Shown: piece after piece, positions 41,034-50,346 of the stretch
Position numbering within the stretch: position 1 is the stretch's first letter
Layout: each line of letters opens with the position of its first letter
NCBI GenBank assembly: GCA_900049755.1
Contig: LT160593.1
Span: 817,259-881,258 of the forward strand
DNA length: 64,000 nucleotides
Reading direction: 5' to 3'
Source of the DNA: Corynebacterium provencense
Lineage (GTDB): Bacteria > Actinomycetota > Actinomycetes > Mycobacteriales > Mycobacteriaceae
Position numbers and translations under genes: made by a program
Notes under the pieces: model-generated
The model's input: only the letters and a program-made list of their open reading frames with translations
Databases searched by the model: none
Told to the model about the DNA's origin: nothing

Positions 41034-41081
41034 TGGAGCCGCTTGCGAGAATCGAACTCGCGACCTTCTCATTACGAGTGA
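41034..41081. repeat. attL: displaced 3' end of tRNA-Thr
   Basis: 48 bp identical to 50271-50318, which is the 3' part of tRNA-Thr(CGT) including the CCA end. It lacks the 5' half and so cannot make a tRNA. It marks the left junction of the integrated element. Confidence 0.93.
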
Positions 41082-41298
41082 CCGCTATCAGGCGTTTCTT
41101 GGAATCAGGACGGTTGCCGACAGTTCCATTATTGCAGGTCATAGCACTAACAGCGTTTCAGTGGTCGGAGAGTGAGTATTCCCGTAGCGGACTGAGAGCG
41201 GACTACAACACCCCAAGTGCAACGTGAATTAGAACGGCAAACAACAGAATCGAACAACGAAGTCCGCACCACATGCAATCATCACCGGCATGGAGACC

Positions 41299-41754
41299 AT
41301 GCTAGCGACATCGACAATCCTCAACCTTGTACTTCTACTTACCTTCACGATCACAGATCGCATGAAGCCGAGCACATCAATCGAACATGCACTGAACATC
41401 CACCGAACCGCTGAGGAAATCAAGGACTCATCTCTCCGCGCAGAAGCTACGGCCTTCACACGTCGTAACCTCAAGGTAGAGCTGGAACTCTCCGCCAGCA
41501 TGATGAACAGAGCCCGCCATCTATTTCCCGCACTGTTTGTTATCCTCGTCGGGAGTTTCGGGGCAACCAGCTTTATAAGTCTCGGGTACGACGAGCCGCC
41601 GACAAACAATATCGGATTCATAGTTGGCGCATTGGCCTTTAGCCTCTCAGCTTTAACTATAGCCTTGCTTTCAACGCTTCCTCTCGTCGTCGATGCATAC
41701 CGCTCCAGGAAGGAAAAGAAGCGTAAAAAAGGGGATAGAGACCACAGATCATGA
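41299..41754 (+). CDS. small membrane protein of unknown function (element cargo)
   Basis: About 151 residues. One N-terminal helix (STILNLVLLLTFTIT), a ~65-residue cytoplasmic helical part rich in charged residues, then two helices (LFPALFVILVGSFGATSFISL and IGFIVGALAFSLSALTIALLS) and a basic tail (RSRKEKKRKK). Markedly AT-rich compared with neighbours and the only plus-strand gene at the left end of the element, next to attL, the place where accessory or defence genes often sit. ATG 41299 with GGAG upstream is preferred over ATG 41290. No homologue recognised. Confidence 0.6.
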   Translation: MLATSTILNLVLLLTFTITDRMKPSTSIEHALNIHRTAEEIKDSSLRAEATAFTRRNLKVELELSASMMNRARHLFPALFVILVGSFGATSFISLGYDEPPTNNIGFIVGALAFSLSALTIALLSTLPLVVDAYRSRKEKKRKKGDRDHRS

Positions 41755-41955
41755 AGATGAATGAGCCCGGGGCGGGGACAATCCCCTCCCCTGGACGATT
41801 CCCAGCTACGGTAGGCATAAGCGTTCTGTACGCGTACGAGTCTGGTGTTTGACCGCCGTAGGCCCGCAGTGGGGTCTGTACGGCTGTCTGGCGGGGTGTC
41901 TGGTGCTCGGTGAGGTTCGAGTGAGGGTGTGGCCCGTACGACCGCCCTAGGGTGC
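41755..41955. other. intergenic region with short repeats in the element
   Basis: 200 bp without a gene. It contains several GTACG/CGTAC words (for example CTGTACGCGTACGAG, CTGTACGG, CCGTACG) and three copies of GTCTGGTG/GTCTGGCG. Such clustering could be an origin, a packaging site or a terminator region; nothing decides among these. Confidence 0.35.
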
Positions 41956-42507
41956 CTATGTGTTGGTTCGTGACATCCTATGAGCGATTGACGGGTGTTC
42001 CCACCGGTTCCCGGTCACCCGGATGAACCGTGCCCGCGTGTACCGTTCCACGCCGCCATCCTCGACAGCACGCCGCCGGCCCGGCCCCTCCGGAGCCTCC
42101 ACGAACACGTGCAACCCCTCCCCACTGACGGACACCTCAGCGAACAGGACACGCTCAGTGATGGACTCCACGACCTCCCGTGCCCACGGCTTCAGCTCCC
42201 CACCGTCTAGTGCGTGGTCCAGGTCGTAGCAGCCCAAACCCCCTCCCAACATCACCCCGAAACCATCACCCGCCGTCGAGGTCTGAACCTCCCGCCAGGA
42301 CGACCACGTGGACGGGTCAGTAGACGACGCAGCACGGCCCTCCACGGTGACAGGCCGCTTCCCCGAACACCGAACCCAACGGCCCTCAGACAGGCGCTCA
42401 GGCGGCCCCACAACCGCCCGGTGGTGGCGTTGACGACACCGGGGAGTGCAGAACCGACGGCGCGACGAACCCCCGACCAACACCACCCCACACTGCTCGC
42501 ATTCCAT
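41956..42507 (-). CDS. Prim-Pol (bifunctional DNA primase/polymerase N-terminal type) protein
   Basis: About 183 residues. N-terminal zinc motif CEQCGVVLVGGSSRRRFCTPRCRQRH, then a compact AEP-like core: VMLGGGLGCYDLDHALDGG (acidic DLD), EVSVSGEGLHVFVEAPEG (SGxGxH) and YTRARFIRVTGNRW. These are the motifs of phage and plasmid Prim-Pol domains that start DNA synthesis. There is no helicase domain in the same chain; the DUF3631 ATPase at the other end of the gene set may act with it. ATG 42507 or 42516 is the likely start. It is the last gene of the minus-strand set. Confidence 0.75.
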   Translation of the reverse strand: MECEQCGVVLVGGSSRRRFCTPRCRQRHHRAVVGPPERLSEGRWVRCSGKRPVTVEGRAASSTDPSTWSSWREVQTSTAGDGFGVMLGGGLGCYDLDHALDGGELKPWAREVVESITERVLFAEVSVSGEGLHVFVEAPEGPGRRRAVEDGGVERYTRARFIRVTGNRWEHPSIAHRMSRTNT

Positions 42508-42613
42508 ACCCCCCATAATACCATGCAAAACATGCCCCCACCAGCAGCAACAGTGAAAAATCTGCCCATAGTCGGAGACACCACACGACGGTGATGTCCC
42601 CTGCTAACAGCAG

Positions 42614-42829
42614 CTACTCACTACTCGTTTCCGCGAACGCTTCGGCACGGCACCTGGAGCACAACCAGCAGTCCCCACGAGACGTCACCGAACGAATCAG
42701 CGCCCTGTGACGCTGCGAGATCATCCGGGAAGTCACCGTGCACGGCCACAGTGCTCCCCCGTCACCGCATACGGCACACACCCCCGGCACCTCGGACAGT
42801 GCCCGCATGTGGGCGTCCACGTGTTTCAC
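42614..42829 (-). CDS. small zinc-finger-like protein
   Basis: 71 residues with two Cys pairs, CAVCGDGG and CWLCSRCR, and a His-Arg-rich middle. It could bind zinc and DNA. GTG 42829 overlaps the stop of the HNH gene (GTGA), so it is translationally coupled to it. Function unknown; partner of the HNH nuclease is possible. Confidence 0.55.
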   Translation of the reverse strand: MKHVDAHMRALSEVPGVCAVCGDGGALWPCTVTSRMISQRHRALIRSVTSRGDCWLCSRCRAEAFAETSSE

Positions 42830-43116
42830 GAACGGTCACCGTCCCTGCCCAACCCCAACGGTGGCGGGGTCGCCCGGCGGAACCTGCCACGACGGGCCGT
42901 AGCCTCCCGCGACGACTTCACCCGGTGACACTCGTGACACAGCCACTGGACGTTATCCAAGGTGTCCGACCCGCCCCTAGCCCGGTTCACAATGTGATCC
43001 AGTTCCAGGCGCTCAGTGGCCCCACAGTGCTGGCACCGCAAATCCAACTCCCGTTGCGCTTCACGGCGTAGCTTCTTCCACTCGTAGCCCTGATACCACG
43101 TATCCCCGTAAGGCAT
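42826..43116 (-). CDS. HNH endonuclease
   Basis: 96-residue HNH nuclease. The core reads CQHCGATERLELDHIVNRARGG, then DNVQWLCHECHRVKS: two CxxC zinc pairs framing the DH of the active site and the final H. Phage HNH proteins of this size often work with terminase at cos sites. Here no terminase is present, so it could redirect a helper phage's packaging or act in homing or exclusion; that is inference. ATG 43116 directly abuts the stop of the upstream micro-gene (TAAATG). Confidence 0.82.
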   Translation of the reverse strand: MPYGDTWYQGYEWKKLRREAQRELDLRCQHCGATERLELDHIVNRARGGSDTLDNVQWLCHECHRVKSSREATARRGRFRRATPPPLGLGRDGDRS

Positions 43117-43233
43117 TTACTCGTCCTCCCAGTAATCATCATCCAGAATCAGATACAGCCCCCGCAGTTCCCTGAACGGAAACGTTTCCACCAGGCCGGG
43201 TATCTCACAGCCCGCCTGAATACCGTCAATCAA
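43117..43233 (-). CDS. 38-residue micro-gene of the element
   Basis: Starts at TTG 43233 with GGGGGG close upstream and ends TAA directly before the HNH ATG. Product: IDGIQAGCEIPGLVETFP then FRELRGLYLILDDDYWEDE, acidic at the end. No homologue recognised; position and spacing support real translation. Confidence 0.5.
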   Translation of the reverse strand: MIDGIQAGCEIPGLVETFPFRELRGLYLILDDDYWEDE

Positions 43234-43277
43234 TATGCCCCCCACTTATAAGATGTCACGAAAGGGAATACGATCCC

Positions 43278-43300
43278 TAAAAACGCCGTTTTAAGGCGAA
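43278..43300 (-). terminator. weak terminator after the 272-residue gene
   Basis: Short stem CGCC / GGCG around TTAAAAC followed on the minus strand by five T. The rest of 43234-43476 shows no supported gene. Confidence 0.4.
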
Positions 43301-43476
43301 GAATAACGCCACCCAACCCCACACCCATAAACCCCACAAAAGCCCGCCACACAAGCCCCCAGGCCCCGAAACGGGCGGATAACAGCAGGGGCACGGCATG
43401 GGAACCCGTACACGGTCGGAAAGGCCCTATGCCTACCGCTGCTGAAGTTCGTGGGGAGGGGTCTCCCCCCAGGTGT

Positions 43477-44295
43477 TTAGACCTGAGTGGAGGTGCCGGC
43501 ACCGTTCAGTCGATCCAGCCGGGCACGGTACACGTCAGGCTGGAGGGTGGTGGCCAAGCTGAACCCGGGGTACTTGCCGAGCGCCAGGTCTACGAGGAAC
43601 CGGTCCTGTCTCGCTTCGTCTCGGAGTTTACGCGCGGTCCTGTGGAGGTCCAGCGTGGCCTCATCGTAGTGCTTGGTGATTTTGCCGAACCCGTCCTTAC
43701 TGTAGGTGAGGTCCGGGAGGTCGGGGATGTCGGCGTGGAGGGCTGCGCTGTCCCTCCACCGGGCACCGAGAGCGTCCAGCCACAGCAGTTTCGGGGACGT
43801 AGCCATGTAGGTGGCGAAGGCGTTCGGGTTGGCCTGTGCAGCGGCTACAGCGTCGTACACGGTTTCACCGAGGTCGTTGATCGCGTTCTGGTAGTCCTCG
43901 ACGGCCTTGTCTACGTCCAGGACACTGGCCACGTGCTCCCATGCGGCGTCATCGTGCAGTGTCGTGGTCACGCGATTGTCGAGCGTCGCGGACACGCGGT
44001 TGTGCGCGTCGTTGATGAGTCGTGCTGCAACAGCGTCACTGCTCTGCTTCTTGATGGTGCTCAGCCACTTCGTGCGGTCAGTGCTGGTCACGATCTCTTG
44101 CACATCAGGTTCCGTCACAGTGACGGTGAGGTCGTTCCACTGCTTCAGGTCGGCTACGGCTTCACGGTGCGCGTCAGTGAACAGGTCGTTCACGTCCACG
44201 CCCCAGGCGTCGGCGAGCTTTCGGTACGCGGCTTCGCCGGTGAGAACAGTGGTTCCCCGGTCGAAAGTAGTAGTGGTGTTGGTGGTAGTAGTCAT
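43477..44295 (-). CDS. 272-residue helical protein of unknown function
   Basis: Not recognised. Begins with a Thr/Asn-rich stretch, then GEAAYRKLADAWGVDVNDLF, a long mostly helical middle (SDAVAARLINDAHNRVSATL, VDKAVEDYQNAINDLGETV, DAVAAAQANPNAFATYMATS) and KLRDEARQDRFLVDLALGKY. No membrane helix, cysteine or nuclease motif. Size and place would suit a structural or redirecting factor in a satellite, but no capsid, portal or scaffold signature is visible. ATG 44295 has GGAG upstream. It is the second largest gene of the minus-strand set. Confidence 0.65.
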   Translation of the reverse strand: MTTTTNTTTTFDRGTTVLTGEAAYRKLADAWGVDVNDLFTDAHREAVADLKQWNDLTVTVTEPDVQEIVTSTDRTKWLSTIKKQSSDAVAARLINDAHNRVSATLDNRVTTTLHDDAAWEHVASVLDVDKAVEDYQNAINDLGETVYDAVAAAQANPNAFATYMATSPKLLWLDALGARWRDSAALHADIPDLPDLTYSKDGFGKITKHYDEATLDLHRTARKLRDEARQDRFLVDLALGKYPGFSLATTLQPDVYRARLDRLNGAGTSTQV

Positions 44296-44305
44296 GCTGG
44301 TCTCC

Positions 44306-44539
44306 TTAGAGTCGGTTGATGTTCAGTGATCTGGTCACGGTCTGCTCGAAATCGTGAAGGGCTTCTGCCTCACGTGCGCCGGGTGCTGTACCGCCCCGGC
44401 CTGCTTCGGGCACGGGAGCGGGCCGGCGTGGCCCGGTGTCCGTGTCCGGGGTGTCCGGGGCCGGGGTGTCGGGCAGGACGGGGGAGGTGAGCGCCTGTTG
44501 GACCAGGGCGGCAAACTGTTCGGCGTTATCACGGCTCAT
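44306..44539 (-). CDS. small Pro-rich protein
   Basis: 77 residues: MSRDNAEQFAALVQQALTS, a Pro/Asp-rich linker, and EALHDFEQTVTRSLNINRL. Probably two short helices joined by a disordered linker. ATG 44539 overlaps the TGA of the preceding gene (ATGA). Ten bases separate it from the 272-residue gene, suggesting the two work together. Confidence 0.55.
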   Translation of the reverse strand: MSRDNAEQFAALVQQALTSPVLPDTPAPDTPDTDTGPRRPAPVPEAGRGGTAPGAREAEALHDFEQTVTRSLNINRL

Positions 44540-44697
44540 GGCTGGCACCTCCCGTGGGTCATGTCCGCAGGACGCGGGTCATGTCCGCCGGGCCTGTCGA
44601 CCGGTATCCACGGGTCCGGTTCCGGGTCCTGCTGTTGGCGGGTGGCCCGGAGCATTGCGCTGTATCGTGCCGCCGGGGTGGTGTATTTGTCACTCAT
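44536..44697 (-). CDS. 53-residue element protein
   Basis: ATG 44697 follows AAAGGA and overlaps the stop of the gene before it; its own TGA overlaps the next ATG. Product starts MSDKYTTPAARYSAMLRATR and is Pro/Asp-rich after that. Unknown function. Confidence 0.5.
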   Translation of the reverse strand: MSDKYTTPAARYSAMLRATRQQQDPEPDPWIPVDRPGGHDPRPADMTHGRCQP

Positions 44698-44839
44698 TTG
44701 TTTCCTTTCCGTCAATGTAGGCGATTGCCTTGTCAGCTGAGTTGAACGCTTTAATGTCGGACTTGTCGGGTGAGGTGGCTATTATTCCCCTCCCCGCCCG
44801 TGGCTTCAGTGTCCATCCCCTGTATTCGTCTGTGGTCAT
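44690..44839 (-). CDS. 49-residue element protein, paralogue of its upstream neighbour
   Basis: MTTDEYRGWTLKPRAGRGI, then IATSPDKSDIKAFNSADKAI and AYIDGKETNE. It aligns with the preceding micro-gene over the pattern W/F...GI/MF-IxxSP-x4-AF-x6-A-x3-ID. ATG 44839 has AAGGGG upstream and overlaps the previous stop (ATGA). Small all-alpha/beta domain, unknown function. Confidence 0.55.
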   Translation of the reverse strand: MTTDEYRGWTLKPRAGRGIIATSPDKSDIKAFNSADKAIAYIDGKETNE

Positions 44840-45000
44840 TCGTTTCCCCTTTTTCTGCGGTATCCGTTCGCCCGGGCTACTTCACTGTCAATCCATTGAC
44901 CGGCTAATGTCATTGTGGGGAATGCGCGGTATTCTTTCACCGGTGATTCGATGATGAACATTCCCGCTTTCTGCATTATTCGGAAGTTCTCACGTTTCAA
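44836..45000 (-). CDS. 54-residue element protein, paralogue of its downstream neighbour
   Basis: Probable TTG start at 45000 (GGGGAT upstream); ATG 44976 is the alternative. Product KRENFRIMQKAGMFIIESPV, KEYRAFPTMTLAGQWIDSE, basic end. It shares a short pattern with the next gene, so the pair probably arose by tandem duplication. Confidence 0.5.
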   Translation of the reverse strand: MKRENFRIMQKAGMFIIESPVKEYRAFPTMTLAGQWIDSEVARANGYRRKRGNE

Positions 45001-45008
45001 TGCTGTGT

Positions 45009-45233
45009 TTAATCCCCTTTCTGCCCTGCCTCCAGCGCTTCTACGGTGTCTACGACCGCGTTAGCCAGGGCTAGGGCCTGTTCGATGGTGAGCATGTAGT
45101 CATTCCGTCCCTGCCTTATGTGGACTTTGGCCGGCTGCCACCAGGCCCGGACGCGGAACTGTGTTGCTCCGATGAGTTCACCGCTCCGCCGTCGGTGCTC
45201 CAGCACGGGGACATAGATGATTGGATTGGCCAT
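45009..45233 (-). CDS. 74-residue element protein
   Basis: ATG 45233 with AGGAGG upstream. Product contains IIYVPVLEHRRRSGELIGAT, QFRVRAWWQPAKVHIRQGR and a C-terminal helix LTIEQALALANAVVDTVEAL. Probably a small beta-plus-helix protein; unknown function. Confidence 0.55.
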   Translation of the reverse strand: MANPIIYVPVLEHRRRSGELIGATQFRVRAWWQPAKVHIRQGRNDYMLTIEQALALANAVVDTVEALEAGQKGD

Positions 45234-45288
45234 GAGCCTCCTAGGTGTTGGTGTGCCAGCCGATTGCCGACCGGCTGGCGACGGGGCG

Positions 45289-46797
45289 CTACGCGGGGGT
45301 TGTCGTCCGCGTGTAGAGCTTCCCGTTGGGTGTGGTGACCTTCCCGTCCTGCTCCAGGGCGTGGAGGTGTTGGAGGATCACTTCTGGTGCTTCTCCGCGT
45401 TGTTCTGCGATGACGGTCACCGGGGTGGCGTCGCCGGGGATCATGGCGTTCAGGGTCTCCAGCGCTTCCTTGTCCGAGGAAGGTGCAACAGGTGCAACAG
45501 GTGCAACAGCGCTGGTCAGGGGGCCGTGGGATGTTGCGCCCTCATTGCGGTGTTGCACACCTGCTAGTGCAACGACCTCCGCCCCCGCAACGCGCTGACC
45601 TGCACTGTTGCGGCTGTTGCGGCTGTTGCGGGTATCTGCAACATCGACAGGGGGAAGGTGCCTATCCCAGGCGTCCTGGAGACCTACCTGTTCCTTGCCG
45701 CGCTGCATTGTCGGATGGACCGTGTACCCGCGTGGGGTCTTACCCGATCCCAGGCGTATCCCAACTGGTGCGACGCCGAACGGTCGAAGCATTCGGGCGA
45801 CCTCATAGGGCTGAATACCACCCGGCAACGAACCCCACTCCGCGCTCTCCAGGCCGTTCAACAAGGTGCACAAGTCCACCGTGGGGATGGACTCCCGACC
45901 CTCCATCACCGTCCGGATGTCCTCCAGCAGTCGGATAGGCCGGGGCTTCTCCTCCAGTGATGGCCGGCCGAGAAAGTACACGCACGCCTCCCTGGCCCAC
46001 TGTCCCCACGGCTCCTCCGCCAGGTCCGCTATCGTTATCAGCGGTTCCCACACCTCCCCGGCCCTGTCCTCCACGCCGGGTGGTAGTTGTGTCTCCACCT
46101 CCTCCAGGTACTCGGTTACGGCGGCGTCCCCGGACCACAGTTCCAGCCATGCGCGGATGTCCTCGGTCTCGCGGCGTGCCCTACGGGTGTTGTACGGGGC
46201 CACGGGTTCGCCACGTTTCCGCTTCCTCATCTCCAGGGTTATGGCGCGGGACACGATGGTGTCGGGCATGTTCCCCGCGATACCGGCGAACGCGACCGGT
46301 GCGAACGTGTGGAACGTCTTCACCTCATTGTCATTGCCTACGCACCGTTCAGCCGTGCCTCCCTGCTTGTAGCCGCTGTTCGCCAGGCCCCGTAGTTGGT
46401 CCTGCTTCCCACCGCCGAACTCGTTGAACGTGGCGTCCGCTTCGTCAAACAGGATGGTGGGAGGTCTGCCCTGCTCATGGCCCTTCTCAATGGTTCGGAA
46501 CAGGACAGCCGGGGTGGTGTCCGCTGTCAGCTTTGGGGCGCATGTCAGGTTCTCCAGCAGCTCCAGTTGCCGGGTCTTGCCGGAGCCTTTCGTAGCACTG
46601 GAGAAGATGAGTCGTGGGGTGGTGTAGAAGCCCATGACAACCCAGGTGTGTGCCGCCCACAAGGCCATGACCCGTGCCTCATGCTCCGACAGGTGCACGC
46701 TGTACCGGTCGATCCACGCCGTCATGCGGTCCAGTACGGCGGTGAGCGTCATACGTTTTGCGGTACCGGCGGTTTGTCCGGTAGGGTTATTATCCAA
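45289..46797 (-). CDS. DUF3631 ATPase, replicative helicase/primase-associated
   Basis: About 502 residues. Walker A SSATKGSGKTRQLELL at ~residue 72, Walker B ILFDEADATFNEFGG, then a sensor-like region SRAITLEMRKRKRGE. The DUF3631 domain follows (LLEDIRTVMEGRESIPTVDL to PRGYTVHPTM), and a C-terminal winged-helix-like end (VIAEQRGEAPEVILQHLHAL). DUF3631 proteins accompany Prim-Pol domains in actinobacterial phages and plasmids and probably unwind DNA. Start is TTG 46797, placed by GGAGGA five bases upstream. Two 9-bp triplet repeats encode NSRNSR and APVAPVAP near the end. Confidence 0.82.
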   Translation of the reverse strand: MDNNPTGQTAGTAKRMTLTAVLDRMTAWIDRYSVHLSEHEARVMALWAAHTWVVMGFYTTPRLIFSSATKGSGKTRQLELLENLTCAPKLTADTTPAVLFRTIEKGHEQGRPPTILFDEADATFNEFGGGKQDQLRGLANSGYKQGGTAERCVGNDNEVKTFHTFAPVAFAGIAGNMPDTIVSRAITLEMRKRKRGEPVAPYNTRRARRETEDIRAWLELWSGDAAVTEYLEEVETQLPPGVEDRAGEVWEPLITIADLAEEPWGQWAREACVYFLGRPSLEEKPRPIRLLEDIRTVMEGRESIPTVDLCTLLNGLESAEWGSLPGGIQPYEVARMLRPFGVAPVGIRLGSGKTPRGYTVHPTMQRGKEQVGLQDAWDRHLPPVDVADTRNSRNSRNSAGQRVAGAEVVALAGVQHRNEGATSHGPLTSAVAPVAPVAPSSDKEALETLNAMIPGDATPVTVIAEQRGEAPEVILQHLHALEQDGKVTTPNGKLYTRTTTPA

Positions 46798-46820
46798 GGA
46801 GATCCTCCATTCTCTTCTTG

Positions 46821-46842
46821 CCCCGTGGCGTTCCCCACGGGG
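46821..46842 (-). promoter_or_regulatory. hairpin upstream of the DUF3631 gene
   Basis: 8-bp stem CCCCGTGG / CCACGGGG with a six-base loop in the 58-bp spacer before the ATPase gene. It may attenuate transcription or separate early and replication genes. Confidence 0.45.
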
Positions 46843-46855
46843 TTTCTTCTTGTGT

Positions 46856-47005
46856 TCACTTCTTCCAGCTGTCTTCCAGCCATTGCAGGTACTCCCGGCC
46901 CGGTCCGATAGGCACGCGGGGGCCGTCGTAGCCCGGCTTGTACACGGCTGAGATGTCCAGCGGTCCACCGAACCGGCGGCGGGCTTCTTCAAGGCTGAGC
47001 TTCAT
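46856..47005 (-). CDS. 49-residue element protein
   Basis: ATG 47005 with AGGAGAA upstream. Product MKLSLEEARRRFGGPLDISA, then VYKPGYDGPRVPIGPGREYL and QWLEDSWKK. Soluble, unknown function. Confidence 0.55.
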   Translation of the reverse strand: MKLSLEEARRRFGGPLDISAVYKPGYDGPRVPIGPGREYLQWLEDSWKK

Positions 47006-47017
47006 GGTGCGGTTCTC

Positions 47018-47299
47018 CTAGTTGTTGTTTCGTGCGCGTTCGATACGGGCGTAGAACTCTTCTCGTTCCGCTTCCCGGTTGACGCCGATGATCGCGTCCA
47101 GGTCCCCGGCTATGGCGTCGGTGAGTGCCGACGGTTTCACGCCTAGGGCGTCGAGTGCGCGGTGGATGTAGTCGGAGGTCAGGCCCGTGTTCCAGATGTA
47201 GGCCTCATCCGCCATCTCTTTCTCGGTGAGGTGTGAGTGGATGAACATCTCCCCGATTGCGCGGGTGATCGTGTCTTGCAGGGTCCAGGTGGGGTTCAT
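47018..47299 (-). CDS. 93-residue element protein
   Basis: Helical acidic protein: LQDTITRAIGEMFIHSHL, EKEMADEAYIWNTGLTSDYI, and DAIIGVNREAEREEFYARIE. ATG 47299 overlaps the stop of the gene before it (ATGA). No domain recognised. Confidence 0.6.
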   Translation of the reverse strand: MNPTWTLQDTITRAIGEMFIHSHLTEKEMADEAYIWNTGLTSDYIHRALDALGVKPSALTDAIAGDLDAIIGVNREAEREEFYARIERARNNN

Positions 47300-47436
47300 C
47301 GTGTCTCCCGTGCGTTGTCGAGTGCTTGATCCAGGCGTTCCCGGGCGTAGTCGAGGTCTGCTTCGCAGATCACCCCGGCGGCGTAGTCACGCTTCGCCTG
47401 GAGGTAGGCGGCGTTCAGGTCTGCTAGGCGGCTCAT
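47296..47436 (-). CDS. 46-residue element protein
   Basis: ATG 47436 with AGGAAAGGA upstream, overlapping the previous stop and the next start. Product SRLADLNAAYLQAKRDYAA and VICEADLDYARERLDQALD, a likely two-helix coiled coil. Unknown function. Confidence 0.55.
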   Translation of the reverse strand: MSRLADLNAAYLQAKRDYAAGVICEADLDYARERLDQALDNARETR

Positions 47437-47537
47437 TGGTTGGTCCTTTCCTCAAGGTGAACGAGAAGTGCGATGAACGCGACGGGCGCTAGTGGGAAAA
47501 GCCACCCGCCAACCCAGAGCAGTAGGGCGTCAAGCAT
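47433..47537 (-). CDS. 34-residue single-span membrane peptide
   Basis: Product MLDALLLWVGGWLFPLAPV followed by AFIALLVHLEERTNQ: almost entirely one membrane helix with a short charged end. It overlaps the gene before by 8 bp and the one after by 4 bp, which argues that it is translated. Candidates are a holin-like, inhibitor or exclusion peptide; nothing decides. Confidence 0.5.
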   Translation of the reverse strand: MLDALLLWVGGWLFPLAPVAFIALLVHLEERTNQ

Positions 47538-47814
47538 TGGTGTGCGCTCCCCGTTCGTGGGCGATGGTCAGCCGGGTGACGGCCAGCTCGGACGACAGCC
47601 CGGGGTCCAGGTCGTCGGGGTCGGTGTCCTGCCCTTCGAAGGTGAGGACGGTTCCGCCCGGGGTGGTGATCGTGGTGGTCTGTCCGTAGGACACTTTCAC
47701 CGCGTGTATTGGGTAGGTGGTCGGCTCACCGCCGAGGTCGTAGGTGAAGTGCGTGTAGGCGAAGTCGCATTCGTCGTTCTCACGGAGGACGCCGATGGCG
47801 TTGGGGGTGTTCAT
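47530..47814 (-). CDS. 94-residue element protein
   Basis: Product has ENDECDFAYTHFTYDLGGEP, VKVSYGQTTTITTPGGTVLT and a C-terminal helix DLDPGLSSELAVTRLTIAHE. Looks like a small beta-rich domain. ATG 47814 with AAGGAG upstream. Unknown function. Confidence 0.6.
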   Translation of the reverse strand: MNTPNAIGVLRENDECDFAYTHFTYDLGGEPTTYPIHAVKVSYGQTTTITTPGGTVLTFEGQDTDPDDLDPGLSSELAVTRLTIAHERGAHTNA

Positions 47815-47833
47815 GTGTGTGTCTCCTTGGTGG

Positions 47834-48043
47834 TTAGGCGCTCTGCTGAGCGGTGCCGGTGGTTTCGTAGGCGTTGGTCAGCCATTCCTCAACGTCGGTG
47901 GCCTTATAGAAGCTCTTTCGTCCGAGTTTGAAGTGGCGGGGTCCGAGGCCCCGGTGCCTCCAGGTGCGGAGGGTGACTTCTGGGATTCCGAGGTATTCGG
48001 CCAGGTCTGCGGTGTCGAGTAGTGCCGCTGTGTTGTCTGCCAA
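47834..48043 (-). CDS. excisionase-like helix-turn-helix protein
   Basis: 69-residue HTH_17/AlpA-type DNA-binding protein: LLDTADLAEYLGIPEVTLRTWRHRG (split: LLDTADLAEYLG, IPEVTLRTWRHRG), GRKSFYKATDVEEWL. Such winged-helix proteins act as recombination directionality factors or activators of phage integrases. It is the first gene of the minus-strand set, divergent from the XRE regulator. AAAGGAACC precedes ATG 48043. Confidence 0.75.
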   Translation of the reverse strand: MADNTAALLDTADLAEYLGIPEVTLRTWRHRGLGPRHFKLGRKSFYKATDVEEWLTNAYETTGTAQQSA

Positions 48044-48502
48044 GGTGGTTCCTTTCGTTGTGGTTTGGTTGGTTGCCCCTCCGTGCCGGTGTGGCGGGAG
48101 GGGGTGTTGCTGCGCGCCGTGCCTATTGCGCCCGTGGCCGGGGGTTCATGCTCCCCACTTACGCTGTGGCGTCTCGGTTGACGGTTTGGTGTGCGCTTTC
48201 CGTGTCCACTGTTCTGTTGTCAAAGATCTGAAGGTGCTTCGCTGTCCATCCCCCGGGGAGCTTCACCGGGTTCGTCTCCGGCACTCTAGTCGGTGACGAT
48301 GTAAGTAAACCGTGGCGTTGTATGCGATGTCAACGTCACCAAGCTGCAATCGCATACATCATACTGTTTTATCCATGCTGTCATGTGTTCTACCTGCGAA
48401 AACGCGGCAGGTTTCCGTCAGTGTGTTCTTCGTCACATGTGATATGCGCAGACCGATACCATGACGTTGTGATTGGGCCATCTGGCATGGCACCATTGCC
48501 AT
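48044..48502. other. divergent control region of the element
   Basis: 460 bp without a supported gene, between the excisionase-like gene (minus) and the XRE regulator (plus). It contains a long inverted repeat (48319-48358), a TCACATGTGA palindrome (48433-48442), an ACCTGC...GCAGGT pair near 48393, and TGGCA boxes at the XRE start. GC drops sharply from about 48300 onwards. Confidence 0.6.
48319..48358. promoter_or_regulatory. inverted-repeat operator in the element control region
   Basis: Perfect 10-bp arms TGTATGCGAT (48319-48328) and ATCGCATACA (48349-48358), 20 bp apart. The arms are two helical turns plus spacing, suiting a dimer-of-dimers repressor. Likely target of the XRE protein or the excisionase-like protein. 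Confidence 0.65.
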
Positions 48503-48509
48503 ATGGCAA
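48483..48509. promoter_or_regulatory. TGGCA operator cluster over the XRE start codon
   Basis: Four TGGCA/TGCCA boxes in 27 bp, including the perfect 14-bp palindrome TTGCCATATGGCAA (48496-48509) whose centre contains the ATG of the regulator gene. Suggests autoregulation. Confidence 0.55.
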
Positions 48510-49045
48510 CCCCCGACCCCAACCGCGAAGAGCTAGGAAGATTCATCCGCGAGCGGCGTGAACGCGCTGGAATGACCCAATCTGAGTTGGCGAAATTGAT
48601 GACCAAGAGACTCGGTAATTCAATTTACCAAACGACAATTGGGAGAATAGAGAATGGAGAGCGATCCCTCAGTCTCACCGAGGCCACAGTAATTGCAGAT
48701 GCACTCAATGTGCCTATTCACGATCTGTCATACCGCGCCTCTCCAACAACTCCAGAAACGCTAAGGCAGAATTACATAATAAGGATTACCGAGGCTGTCA
48801 ATTCACTAGTAATGGCCGAATCGGCACTTAAATCACTATCAAATACTGCCGATAATCTAATCGATCTTCCCGAAGATCAAAGAACAGCATTGCCAGATGG
48901 ACTACAGAAGAGAATATCTAATCTTTCCGCTGACGCCTTCATATACGACGACTTGCGCAATTCAATTAAAGAATCTATTCAAATTCTGAATGACGACTTC
49001 CATAAATGGCTAGGCAGCGTCGATCAAGATTCGACCGATGACTAA
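48503..49045 (+). CDS. XRE-family transcriptional regulator (element repressor)
   Basis: 180 residues. N-terminal HTH: FIRERRERAGMTQSELAKLM, then TTIGRIENGERSLSLTEATV and a C-terminal helical region of ~100 residues rich in Asn, Ile and Ser. Probably the immunity-type repressor that keeps the element silent. The coding sequence is very AT-rich for this genome, a sign of transfer. ATG 48503 has no clear ribosome site and sits in a palindrome; leaderless translation is possible. The 3' end overlaps the integrase start by 8 bp. Confidence 0.8.
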   Translation: MATPDPNREELGRFIRERRERAGMTQSELAKLMTKRLGNSIYQTTIGRIENGERSLSLTEATVIADALNVPIHDLSYRASPTTPETLRQNYIIRITEAVNSLVMAESALKSLSNTADNLIDLPEDQRTALPDGLQKRISNLSADAFIYDDLRNSIKESIQILNDDFHKWLGSVDQDSTDD

Positions 49046-50318
49046 CCAGCGCCGTACTCCGGGCACTACGCGCATAGAAGACAGGTGGACCAGGCGCGAC
49101 GGCACCCCCAGCAAACGCCACGGCACCGGCAAACGCTGGCTACTCCGCTGGATCGACCACAACGGCGAAGAAAAAACAGCGTCCTACACACGCAAAATCG
49201 ACGCCACCCGGCACGAGAAAACGATCACCGCCCAGTTCCACAACGGCGACTACATCGACCCCCACAACGCCCGAACAACACTCGCCACCATCCACGAAGA
49301 ATGGTCCACAATCACCTCCCCCACCGTCAAACCCACCACCCGCACCAACCGCAAAAGCACGTGGAAAAACCATGTGGCACCCGTGTGGGGAGACAGGGAA
49401 GCCGGGTCGATACGCAAACCCGAGGTGAAAGCATGGGTAGCGGAACAGCACAAGAACGGCACCGGCCCCGCCGTCCTCCAGCAGTCCATGTTCATTCTCC
49501 GTGCCGTCCTCGGTCACGCTGTCGAAGCGGGGATCATCGTCCACAATCCTGCCGCCGGGGTGAAACTCCCCCGCACCGGTCAACGGCCCCGGCCCATCCT
49601 CACTGCCACGGAGGTGGAACGTCTGGCCCGGACGGTGGACTACCTCCCCGAGATTGTCCGCTTTCTCGCGTACACGGGACTCCGGTTCGGTGAAGCGTCA
49701 GCGCTCACGGTGGCGGACATTGACCTGAAGCGCCGCAGAATCAACGTGAACAAGGCGTACAGCGACGTTGGGGGGACGATGGTGTTAGGAGACACGAAGA
49801 CATACGAGACACGCTCAGTGCCGTTCCCAGGCGTCCTGGACGGCGACCTACGGGCACTCACAGCAGGGAAGCTGAAGACAGCACCAGTGTTCACCAGTGT
49901 GGAGCGCAGACCACTACGGCACAGCAACTACAGGAGTCGGTACTTCCGGCCGGCGGTGGACACGCTCCGTGAGGTGTACGAGGACTTCCCGGCGTTGACG
50001 CTGCACGATCTCCGGCACACGGCGGCGTCGCTTGCCATCTCGTCTGGTGCGAACGTGAAGGCGGTTCAGAGAATGCTCGGACATGCGACCGCGACGGAGA
50101 CGTTGAACAGGTATGCGGACTTGTTCCCGGACGACTTGGACGCTGTTGCAAGGGGTATCAACGCACTGGTGAAGCCGTCACGTTCGGGGCGTAGCGGACT
50201 GAGAGCGGACCAACAGGAAAAGACCACATCCCCCGTTGCCGAGGAAATGTGGTCTGACCTGCTAACTTACTGGAGCCGCTTGCGAGAATCGAACTCGCGA
50301 CCTTCTCATTACGAGTGA
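49038..50318 (+). CDS. int: tyrosine site-specific integrase
   Basis: 426-residue phage-type integrase. AP2/arm-binding N terminus (WTRRDGTPSKRHGTGKRWLLRW), SAM-like core-binding domain (WKNHVAPVWGDREAGSIRKP), and a catalytic domain with Arg in YTGLRFGEASAL, HDLRH (His-x-x-Arg), GH in MLGHATATETLNRY (His, then Tyr nucleophile). It should recombine the 48-bp repeat in tRNA-Thr. The last 15 codons and the TGA lie exactly in the att core, so the protein is unchanged by excision. GTG/ATG near 49038 overlaps the XRE gene, so the two are coupled. Confidence 0.93.
   Translation: MTNQRRTPGTTRIEDRWTRRDGTPSKRHGTGKRWLLRWIDHNGEEKTASYTRKIDATRHEKTITAQFHNGDYIDPHNARTTLATIHEEWSTITSPTVKPTTRTNRKSTWKNHVAPVWGDREAGSIRKPEVKAWVAEQHKNGTGPAVLQQSMFILRAVLGHAVEAGIIVHNPAAGVKLPRTGQRPRPILTATEVERLARTVDYLPEIVRFLAYTGLRFGEASALTVADIDLKRRRINVNKAYSDVGGTMVLGDTKTYETRSVPFPGVLDGDLRALTAGKLKTAPVFTSVERRPLRHSNYRSRYFRPAVDTLREVYEDFPALTLHDLRHTAASLAISSGANVKAVQRMLGHATATETLNRYADLFPDDLDAVARGINALVKPSRSGRSGLRADQQEKTTSPVAEEMWSDLLTYWSRLRESNSRPSHYE
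50271..50318. repeat. attR within tRNA-Thr
   Basis: 48-bp copy identical to 41034-41081. It begins with the complement of the tRNA CCA end and ends with the integrase TGA. Confidence 0.93.
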
Positions 50319-50346
50319 GACGCTCTACCGACTGAGCTAAAGCGGC
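50271..50346 (-). tRNA. tRNA-Thr (CGT), integration site
   Basis: Cloverleaf on the minus strand. Acceptor GCCGCTT pairs with AAGCGGC, the anticodon loop is CTCGTAA (anticodon CGT), the T-arm is GCGAGTTCGATTCTCGC, and CCA is encoded. Its 3' half is supplied by the element, so the gene stays functional after integration. Confidence 0.95.

Follow-up and report, generated by a model that had tools for sequence, protein, structure and literature searches.

A tRNA-Thr-integrated element of Corynebacterium provencense is probably a phage satellite with a corynephage-type cos site and a candidate capsid switch

Introduction

How might a small integrated element travel between cells when no capsid, portal, terminase, tail or lysis gene can be recognised in it? 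This question is raised by a locus of Corynebacterium provencense (GenBank assembly GCA_900049755.1, contig LT160593.1), which we analysed within a stretch of 64,000 nucleotides (contig positions 817,259 to 881,258; hereafter the window, in whose coordinates all features are given). Two identical copies of a 48-bp repeat (41034-41081 and 50271-50318) flank a 9.24-kb element at tRNA-Thr(CGT), which the original prediction, made from the letters only, took for a satellite that replicates itself and relies on a helper corynephage. Our analysis indicates that the element is very probably a phage satellite with a cohesive-end (cos) site of corynephage type, and the fuller reading, in which two genes beside that site, o80 and o272, might act as a switch of the helper capsid, seems to us probable as a whole, the switch itself being a tentative part of it.

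Results and discussion

A cos-like site lies at 43399-43472 on the minus strand, and the ends of the phage genome records align in it between 43429 and 43428. The profile behind it was built from eight sequences of phages, prophages and satellites, the window being left out and reversed sequences serving as control. It found one clear site in the window (43402-43471, E 2.4e-5) and another in L083 (E 9.5e-7; L and G designate the loci and genomes compared), for a best reversed-sequence control of 7.5. The letters of the window site, GGCAT and then AGGGCC with TGTACGGGTT downstream, are close to the ends of corynephage Poushou. Its phage counterpart is a DNA block upstream of gene 1. The prophage-type loci L028, L029, L031 and L033 and the satellites L030 and L069 have this block in common, and it falls where the linear genomes of Poushou and Juicebox, as recorded, begin and end. 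An exact scan of IMG/VR with the window-letter pattern GCATAGGGCCT-gap-TGTACGGGTT returned ten contigs of 23-47 kb, every one with an HNH gene just upstream; gene 1 lies downstream in seven, two have TerS or TerL as the next gene matched, and the locus is incomplete in one. Elsewhere among the 242 genomes of our genus survey, the sequence that best resembles the window site (88% over 33 bp, E 2.6e-4) lies in L105 (G160), a contig end that bears cos, gene 1, TerS and TerL, the HNH side being missing. With the window, L083 and L105 added in an iterated profile (best reversed control 0.94), E values went from 0.019 to 4e-4 in L066 and from 0.11 to 0.024 in L070; matches were weak in L084 (0.095), L046 (0.13) and L008 (0.48), L073 gave only E 6.5, and L009, L010, L027, L032 and L068 gave no match at E 10. 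A second, weak cos-like site (iterated profile, E 0.016) is seen in the window at 41782-41832, near attL and on the opposite strand.

The genes near the clear site also have counterparts in these phages. The order in Poushou and Juicebox is HNH, record end and record start, gene 1, gene 2 and TerL, gene 2 of Poushou being TerS by PF25673. The HNH endonuclease of the element (42826-43116, minus strand; PF01844, 1.1e-11), beside cos, is homologous to the last gene of both phages (42.4% identity to Poushou and 41.1% to Juicebox, over 85 and 56 residues respectively), and its Prim-Pol-like protein (41956-42528, minus strand; phrog_8643, 9.2e-63) to gene 1, the first after cos (48.6% and 45.6% over 171-173 residues). 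Synteny marks both as homologues of genes next to cos in the phages, and not as plain replication genes. Corynephage gene 1 itself (L011 201-788, L037 219-839) carries its Prim-Pol-like domain right after the genome end and before TerS, and a packaging role for it is possible. Because this cos-like site is present, the idea of helper dependence gains sequence support; it matches phages of the same host group, as in cos-type phage-inducible chromosomal islands (PICIs) and Staphylococcus aureus pathogenicity islands (SaPIs), and it points to phages of the Poushou/Juicebox type as the probable helper group. This part of the original prediction is thus strengthened, while its other part, replication by the element itself, may be read from the DUF3631 gene only.

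The boundaries agree with a mobile element that has its own integration module. The 48-bp repeat of the tRNA-Thr 3' end is perfect, as had been predicted, and the assembly of 3.08 Mb holds exactly two copies when up to three mismatches are permitted. The left copy, found by repeat search, is attL (41034-41081, plus strand); the right copy, attR, forms the 3' 48 bp of an intact tRNA-Thr(CGT) gene (50271-50346, minus strand). G+C content is 0.51-0.66 within the element and about 0.64-0.68 in the adjoining kilobases. The tRNA gene is intact in all seven relatives whose locus was examined, and the window flanks, once joined, align over the junction in six of the seven, with a conserved left flank of 13-18 bp only; on alignment, this junction reads as the empty site. 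A tyrosine integrase of 426 aa (49038-50318, plus strand; PF00589, 6.6e-20; phrog_1), whose reading frame ends inside the att core, stands at the right end. Beside it, a helix-turn-helix repressor-like protein (48506-49045, plus strand, start codon uncertain; PF01381, 1.7e-11, with the open reading frame (ORF) scanned from 48473) diverges from the main operon, which is led by an excisionase-like HTH_17 protein (47834-48043, minus strand; Pfam and phrog_66, 2.4e-9). PICIs are characterised by a divergent regulatory region and pri-rep replication genes. Here the repressor diverges from the excisionase-led operon, and a DUF3631 P-loop ATPase, the probable replication gene (45289-46992, minus strand; PF12307, 4.5e-36), is present together with the Prim-Pol-like gene, but no classical PICI primase was recognised in the element. 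For the ATPase a start near 46752 is probable, because the 5' part of its reading frame is overlapped by a small ORF.

Scans of all 19 ORFs of the element against PHROGs, of ten against Pfam and of eight against NCBIfam recognised no gene for capsid, portal, tail, terminase or lysis, in accord with what had been predicted for virion, terminase and lysis genes. The six functions originally named are all borne out by Pfam: integrase, repressor, excisionase-like gene, HNH and Prim-Pol are backed by PHROGs as well, and DUF3631 by Pfam alone. The remaining ORFs gave nothing meaningful in PHROGs, Pfam, NCBIfam and PADLOC as applied. Matches to terminase profiles were limited to cross-hits of the HNH protein (phrog_4581, 3.4e-14; PF05876, below cut-off) and of the HTH_17 protein (phrog_57, 0.016; phrog_141, 0.032). 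With no recognisable virion gene, the element looks like a phage satellite, and with no capsid, portal or terminase gene of its own recognised it does not fall among the capsid-forming PICIs. No unknown gene of the window copy could be recognised as capsid, portal or terminase, a finding that would have spoken against a satellite. Neither TerS nor an Rpp-type packaging redirector was recognised in the window; among the relatives, the satellite-like elements L009 (10628-11056) and L070 (13812-14273) carry a PF25673 TerS, of the same family as Poushou gene 2.

The nearest relatives are not full prophages, the other outcome that would have told against the prediction; each is an integrated element of comparable size that is bounded by att repeats of its own and has a related backbone (L066, 10.5 kb; L070, 9.5 kb; L032, 9.4 kb; L069, 8.9 kb; L030, 8.7 kb), and L066 and L030 occupy the same tRNA gene. 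L066 (G071), the closest in backbone, sits at tRNA-Thr(CGT) between 43-bp repeats 10.47 kb apart and shares with the window its integrase (48% identity over residues 1-406), repressor (37%), excisionase-like protein (45%), the small protein o93 (48%) and DUF3631 (56%). At the o80-o272 slot it encodes a head protease (56% identical to that of L027, phrog_3894), a major capsid protein (MCP; PF25209, 1.4e-13), a cement protein (44% identical to that of L027, PF09956) and a protease-C-like protein. The original prediction has to be amended in this respect, since sisters encode capsid proteins in this slot. Capsid proteins of PF05065 occur in L030, L069 and L032, and the capsid protein of L070 is 55.5% identical to that of L032. 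In L030 and L069 the capsid gene is followed by cos and then gene 1 (a short gene 1 in L069), in L070 by the weaker cos and TerS, and in L032 by gene 1, cos being undetected there; the adjacency of MCP and cos in L030 and L069 (and, with less certainty, in L070) mirrors at sequence level that of o272 and cos in the window. L027, in which no att repeat or ends were found, shares the small genes o46, o74 and o49b and a conserved hairpin with the window and carries protease, MCP and cement genes.

DUF3631 was found at 16 places in 15 of the 242 genomes. Two of the 16 have o272 (the window and G176:C4), eight have capsid genes (G071, G061, G200, G181, G153, G213, G192 and G056, the last judged by a prohead protease, PF04586, and a 97-residue capsid match), and five (G060, G078, G176:C42, G020 and G021) have neither o272 nor capsid by the queries and ORF lists used; the G081 locus was left out of the examination of context. 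Alternative head modules across the genus set are TerL-portal-capsid, protease-capsid-cement, scaffold-capsid and o80-o272, and, judging from these comparisons, capsid and o80-o272 modules appear to swap as units on a shared backbone. The tRNA-Leu element L073 (2673-13224, 10.5 kb), with matches to DUF3631, HNH, TerL, portal and MCP, resembles a capsid-forming PICI.

What, then, occupies the capsid position in the window? The gene o272 (43477-44295, minus strand), a candidate capsid redirector, encodes a predicted helical protein, and o80 before it (44306-44548, minus strand), in the scaffold position, a small Pro-rich protein whose homologues precede o272 in L008, L009 and L010 too. At an E value of 0.001 the database contains 36 members of the o272 family, counting that of the window, and no member has a precomputed Pfam domain; the family occurs at six places in four of the 242 genomes. 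None of 50,697 phage records and 72,556 plasmid records matched, scanning viral contigs with an o272 pattern gave no relative, and nothing usable came from PHROGs, Pfam, NCBIfam, PADLOC, PDB sequences or fold libraries. Weak matches were rejected as noise: for o272, PF20984 (0.017) and DNA_ligase_A_N (0.033), both below cut-off; within the family, phrog_12029 (0.0079, L009 member) and a designed PDB protein (0.0018); and further PDLC01946 (0.0084) and an actinobacterial integration host factor (IHF; 0.019, L083 member). The known switchers Rcm, CpmB, Sid and TcaP are absent from the PDB profile hits of o272 up to E 1 and from the fold-search matches listed, though a true relative could be missed in this way, and neither o272 nor o80 matches a capsid family in PHROGs, Pfam or NCBIfam; a likeness of the o80 C-terminus to one scaffold was seen by eye only and was not used. 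From sequence and models, o272 is a new family, helical by prediction, with no detectable capsid similarity.

Since sister elements keep scaffold and major capsid genes at this position, it is tempting to propose that o80-o272 makes the helper assemble a capsid whose size suits about 9 kb, the task of Ccm, CpmAB or Rcm in SaPIs, here with an unrelated protein. We put this role forward tentatively from the position of the pair; by analogy, SaPIs offer a precedent in which, according to the excerpted account, different capsid switchers occupy one operon position (PMC12409344). During lysogeny the repressor would hold the operon silent; infection by a helper corynephage would lift repression, the integrase and the excisionase-like protein would cut the element out, replication into concatemers would depend on DUF3631, the terminase of the helper would cleave at cos and package the element, and o80-o272 would steer the helper capsid toward a smaller size. 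Induction, replication and packaging are here steps suggested by gene content. The pair might equally tentatively be described as a new type of switch, in which a helical family unrelated to capsid proteins is exchanged for a scaffold-capsid module upstream of a pirated cos, with a satellite-specific structured RNA in some elements.

Several points weigh against this picture. The window site precedes o42 and HNH, whereas the phage site sits between HNH and gene 1. The o272 elements L009 and L010 have no cos match and that of L008 is weak (E 0.09 and 0.48). In the islands L083 and L084, which gave no match to o80 or DUF3631, o272 relatives of a longer form occur, and the L083 cos lies on the strand opposite its o272 relative. 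That the record ends are physical cos ends is an assumption taken from the phage records, and we found no paper on the physical ends of the Poushou and Juicebox records. A capsid scan of the host genome limited to PF05065, and other searches of it run without a working control, gave no helper. Finally, position is the only tie between o272 and capsids, and induction and transfer of the satellite are predicted steps.

Among other explanations, the one that survives best makes o272 non-structural, altering packaging specificity or blocking the helper in the manner of Rpp, which binds TerS, while the element travels in ordinary or unchanged capsids; we regard it as a serious, if on balance doubtful, possibility. 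It would suit the place of o272 next to cos and the distant forms of the family, 390-399 aa long and 21-23% identical, which reside in small integrase islands near tRNA genes (L083 7106-14618, L084 6829-14421) made of an integrase, an HTH gene, the long o272 relative and few small genes, with a clear cos-like site in L083 and a weak one in L084. However, the closest backbone relatives swap the cassette for capsid genes and not for terminase genes, and L009, which bears o272, has a TerS-like protein, so that a second packaging factor there seems less needed.

It is unlikely that o272 is a very divergent MCP with o80 as its scaffold, forming its own small shell with portal and tail parts of the helper. 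The slot shared with the scaffold and MCP genes of the sisters, the similar size (272 aa for o272 vs 275-314 aa for sister MCPs) and a place directly before cos, like that of MCP in L030 and L069, would be explained. Against this, hhalign gave a probability of 0.1% for o272 with either of two MCP alignments, which reach 95.5% with each other. AlphaFold models of two o272 members (best-of-five pLDDT 87.5 and 80.3; other models 60-77) consist mainly of helices, among them one of about 40 residues, contain little sheet and gave no match in fold-library searches; remote homology could still escape all these comparisons. Decay from a prophage, or a plain integrative island, with cos, HNH and gene 1 as unused relics, is likewise an unlikely origin of the element: cos and the genes beside it do form the sole recognisable late parts of phage origin and the limited searches of the host genome returned no helper, but the ORFs are intact, the att repeat is perfect, and the 8.7-10.5 kb architecture recurs in several Corynebacterium species at different tRNA genes with modules that alternate as units. 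The satellite with a cos site and an o80-o272 switch is thus the reading we favour, and both the pairing of satellite and helper and the role of o272 can now be tested with known phages of the Poushou/Juicebox type.

Set beside known satellites, the element is best read as like the cos-type SaPIs in logic and unlike them in genes. In the sections cited, SaPIbov5 (PMC8569155) combines cos-type packaging with a gene in the capsid-switch slot, as here; its Ccm is a homologue of capsid protein, as in the sister elements, whereas o272 has no detectable capsid homology, and backbone (DUF3631, gene 1, HNH) and host differ. Rcm of SaPIpT1028 is similar by description: the consulted part of PMC12409344 presents it as helical, unlike the other known capsid regulators and located in the operon position of Ccm/CpmAB; its function was shown genetically, whereas the role of o272 is proposed from position. 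The Escherichia coli PICI EcCICFT073, in the account cited (PMC6739421), carries two cos sites that serve a cos helper; in the window one site is clear and another, on the other strand, is weak, and no Rpp-like gene was recognised in it. Candidate PICIs of Mycobacterium, defined by an integrase and a major capsid gene and drawn at tRNA genes in three of four cases in the part cited (PMC10654092), are integrated and capsid-bearing like L030, L032 and L066-L070; the present element, having no recognisable capsid gene, would escape that definition, and the part cited mentions neither o272 nor a comparison of cos sites. Capsid-forming PICIs and the Streptomyces satellites Mulch and Flayer, as portrayed in the portion cited (PMC10690885), encode their encapsidation, unlike the window element, in which neither capsid nor terminase gene is recognisable; L073 is the locus here that resembles a capsid-forming PICI. 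Satellites packaged by cos (PMC8569155, PMC6739421) and satellites with capsid genes (PMC10654092) are already known from these excerpts. For Corynebacterium, we saw no description of phage satellites among the open-access literature matches listed, apart from a general remark, in an excerpt of PMC10023795, which allows that small prophage-like elements of actinobacteria might be satellites. Against this literature, what looks new is the group of Corynebacterium elements that have a cos in common, the swap between capsid genes and o80-o272, the family of o272, and the hairpin.

The hairpin (42560-42613, minus strand; GUUAGCAG-stem-loop-CGACUA) recurs with conserved flanks in L027 (9117-9179), L008 (11665-11733) and L046 (near 12714). 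It is likely, if not proven, to be an RNA, because it folds better than shuffled sequences (z -3.8 in the window, -3.8 in L027 and -5.5 in L008) and because its possible G-U pairs require reading on the operon strand; the reverse strand of the L008 copy folds well too (z -3.9). All 13 pairs hold in the four sequences and two change on both sides; shuffles reach the same number of pairs in 354 of 500 cases and the covariation score in 12 of 500. There is no match in Rfam. A model of the hairpin finds four clear places in the 242 genomes, each within a satellite-like element or a remnant, and it matches the window, L027 and L008 and no phage or prophage among 16 sources (best such E 1.2). Two partial matches in G036 (E 0.02) and G167 (E 0.04) were taken as noise, and the idea that the hairpin is the cos site was dropped, a separate region matching the phage cos. 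The remnant L046 (11455-12780), about 2 kb from tRNA-Ile/tRNA-Ala, holds HNH, two relatives of o71 and the hairpin.

Other genes of the element

Small genes fill the rest of the operon, all on the minus strand. Between the excisionase-like gene and the ATPase (47018-47814) lie o94 (47530-47814), o46 (47296-47436; relatives in L010 and L027) and o93 (47018-47299; relatives in L008 and L066). Downstream of the ATPase follow o74, o54, o49b and o59 (44536-45233), with relatives of o49b in L009, L010 and L027, and of o74 in L027 and weakly in L010 (E 0.001). The short gene o42 (43117-43245) is kept near o272 in L009 and L010. The small protein o71 (42614-42829) shows, by eye, two CxxC pairs, and its two homologues in L046 also stand beside HNH and hairpin. 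Near attL, on the plus strand, 41290-41754 encodes a predicted small membrane protein, possibly cargo, with a weak match to phrog_944 (0.0072) and no defence match in PADLOC. Within a 419-aa ORF of L027 (3453-3592), repeats of 26 bp spaced by 24 bp (one by 66) are possibly iterons of a replication origin.

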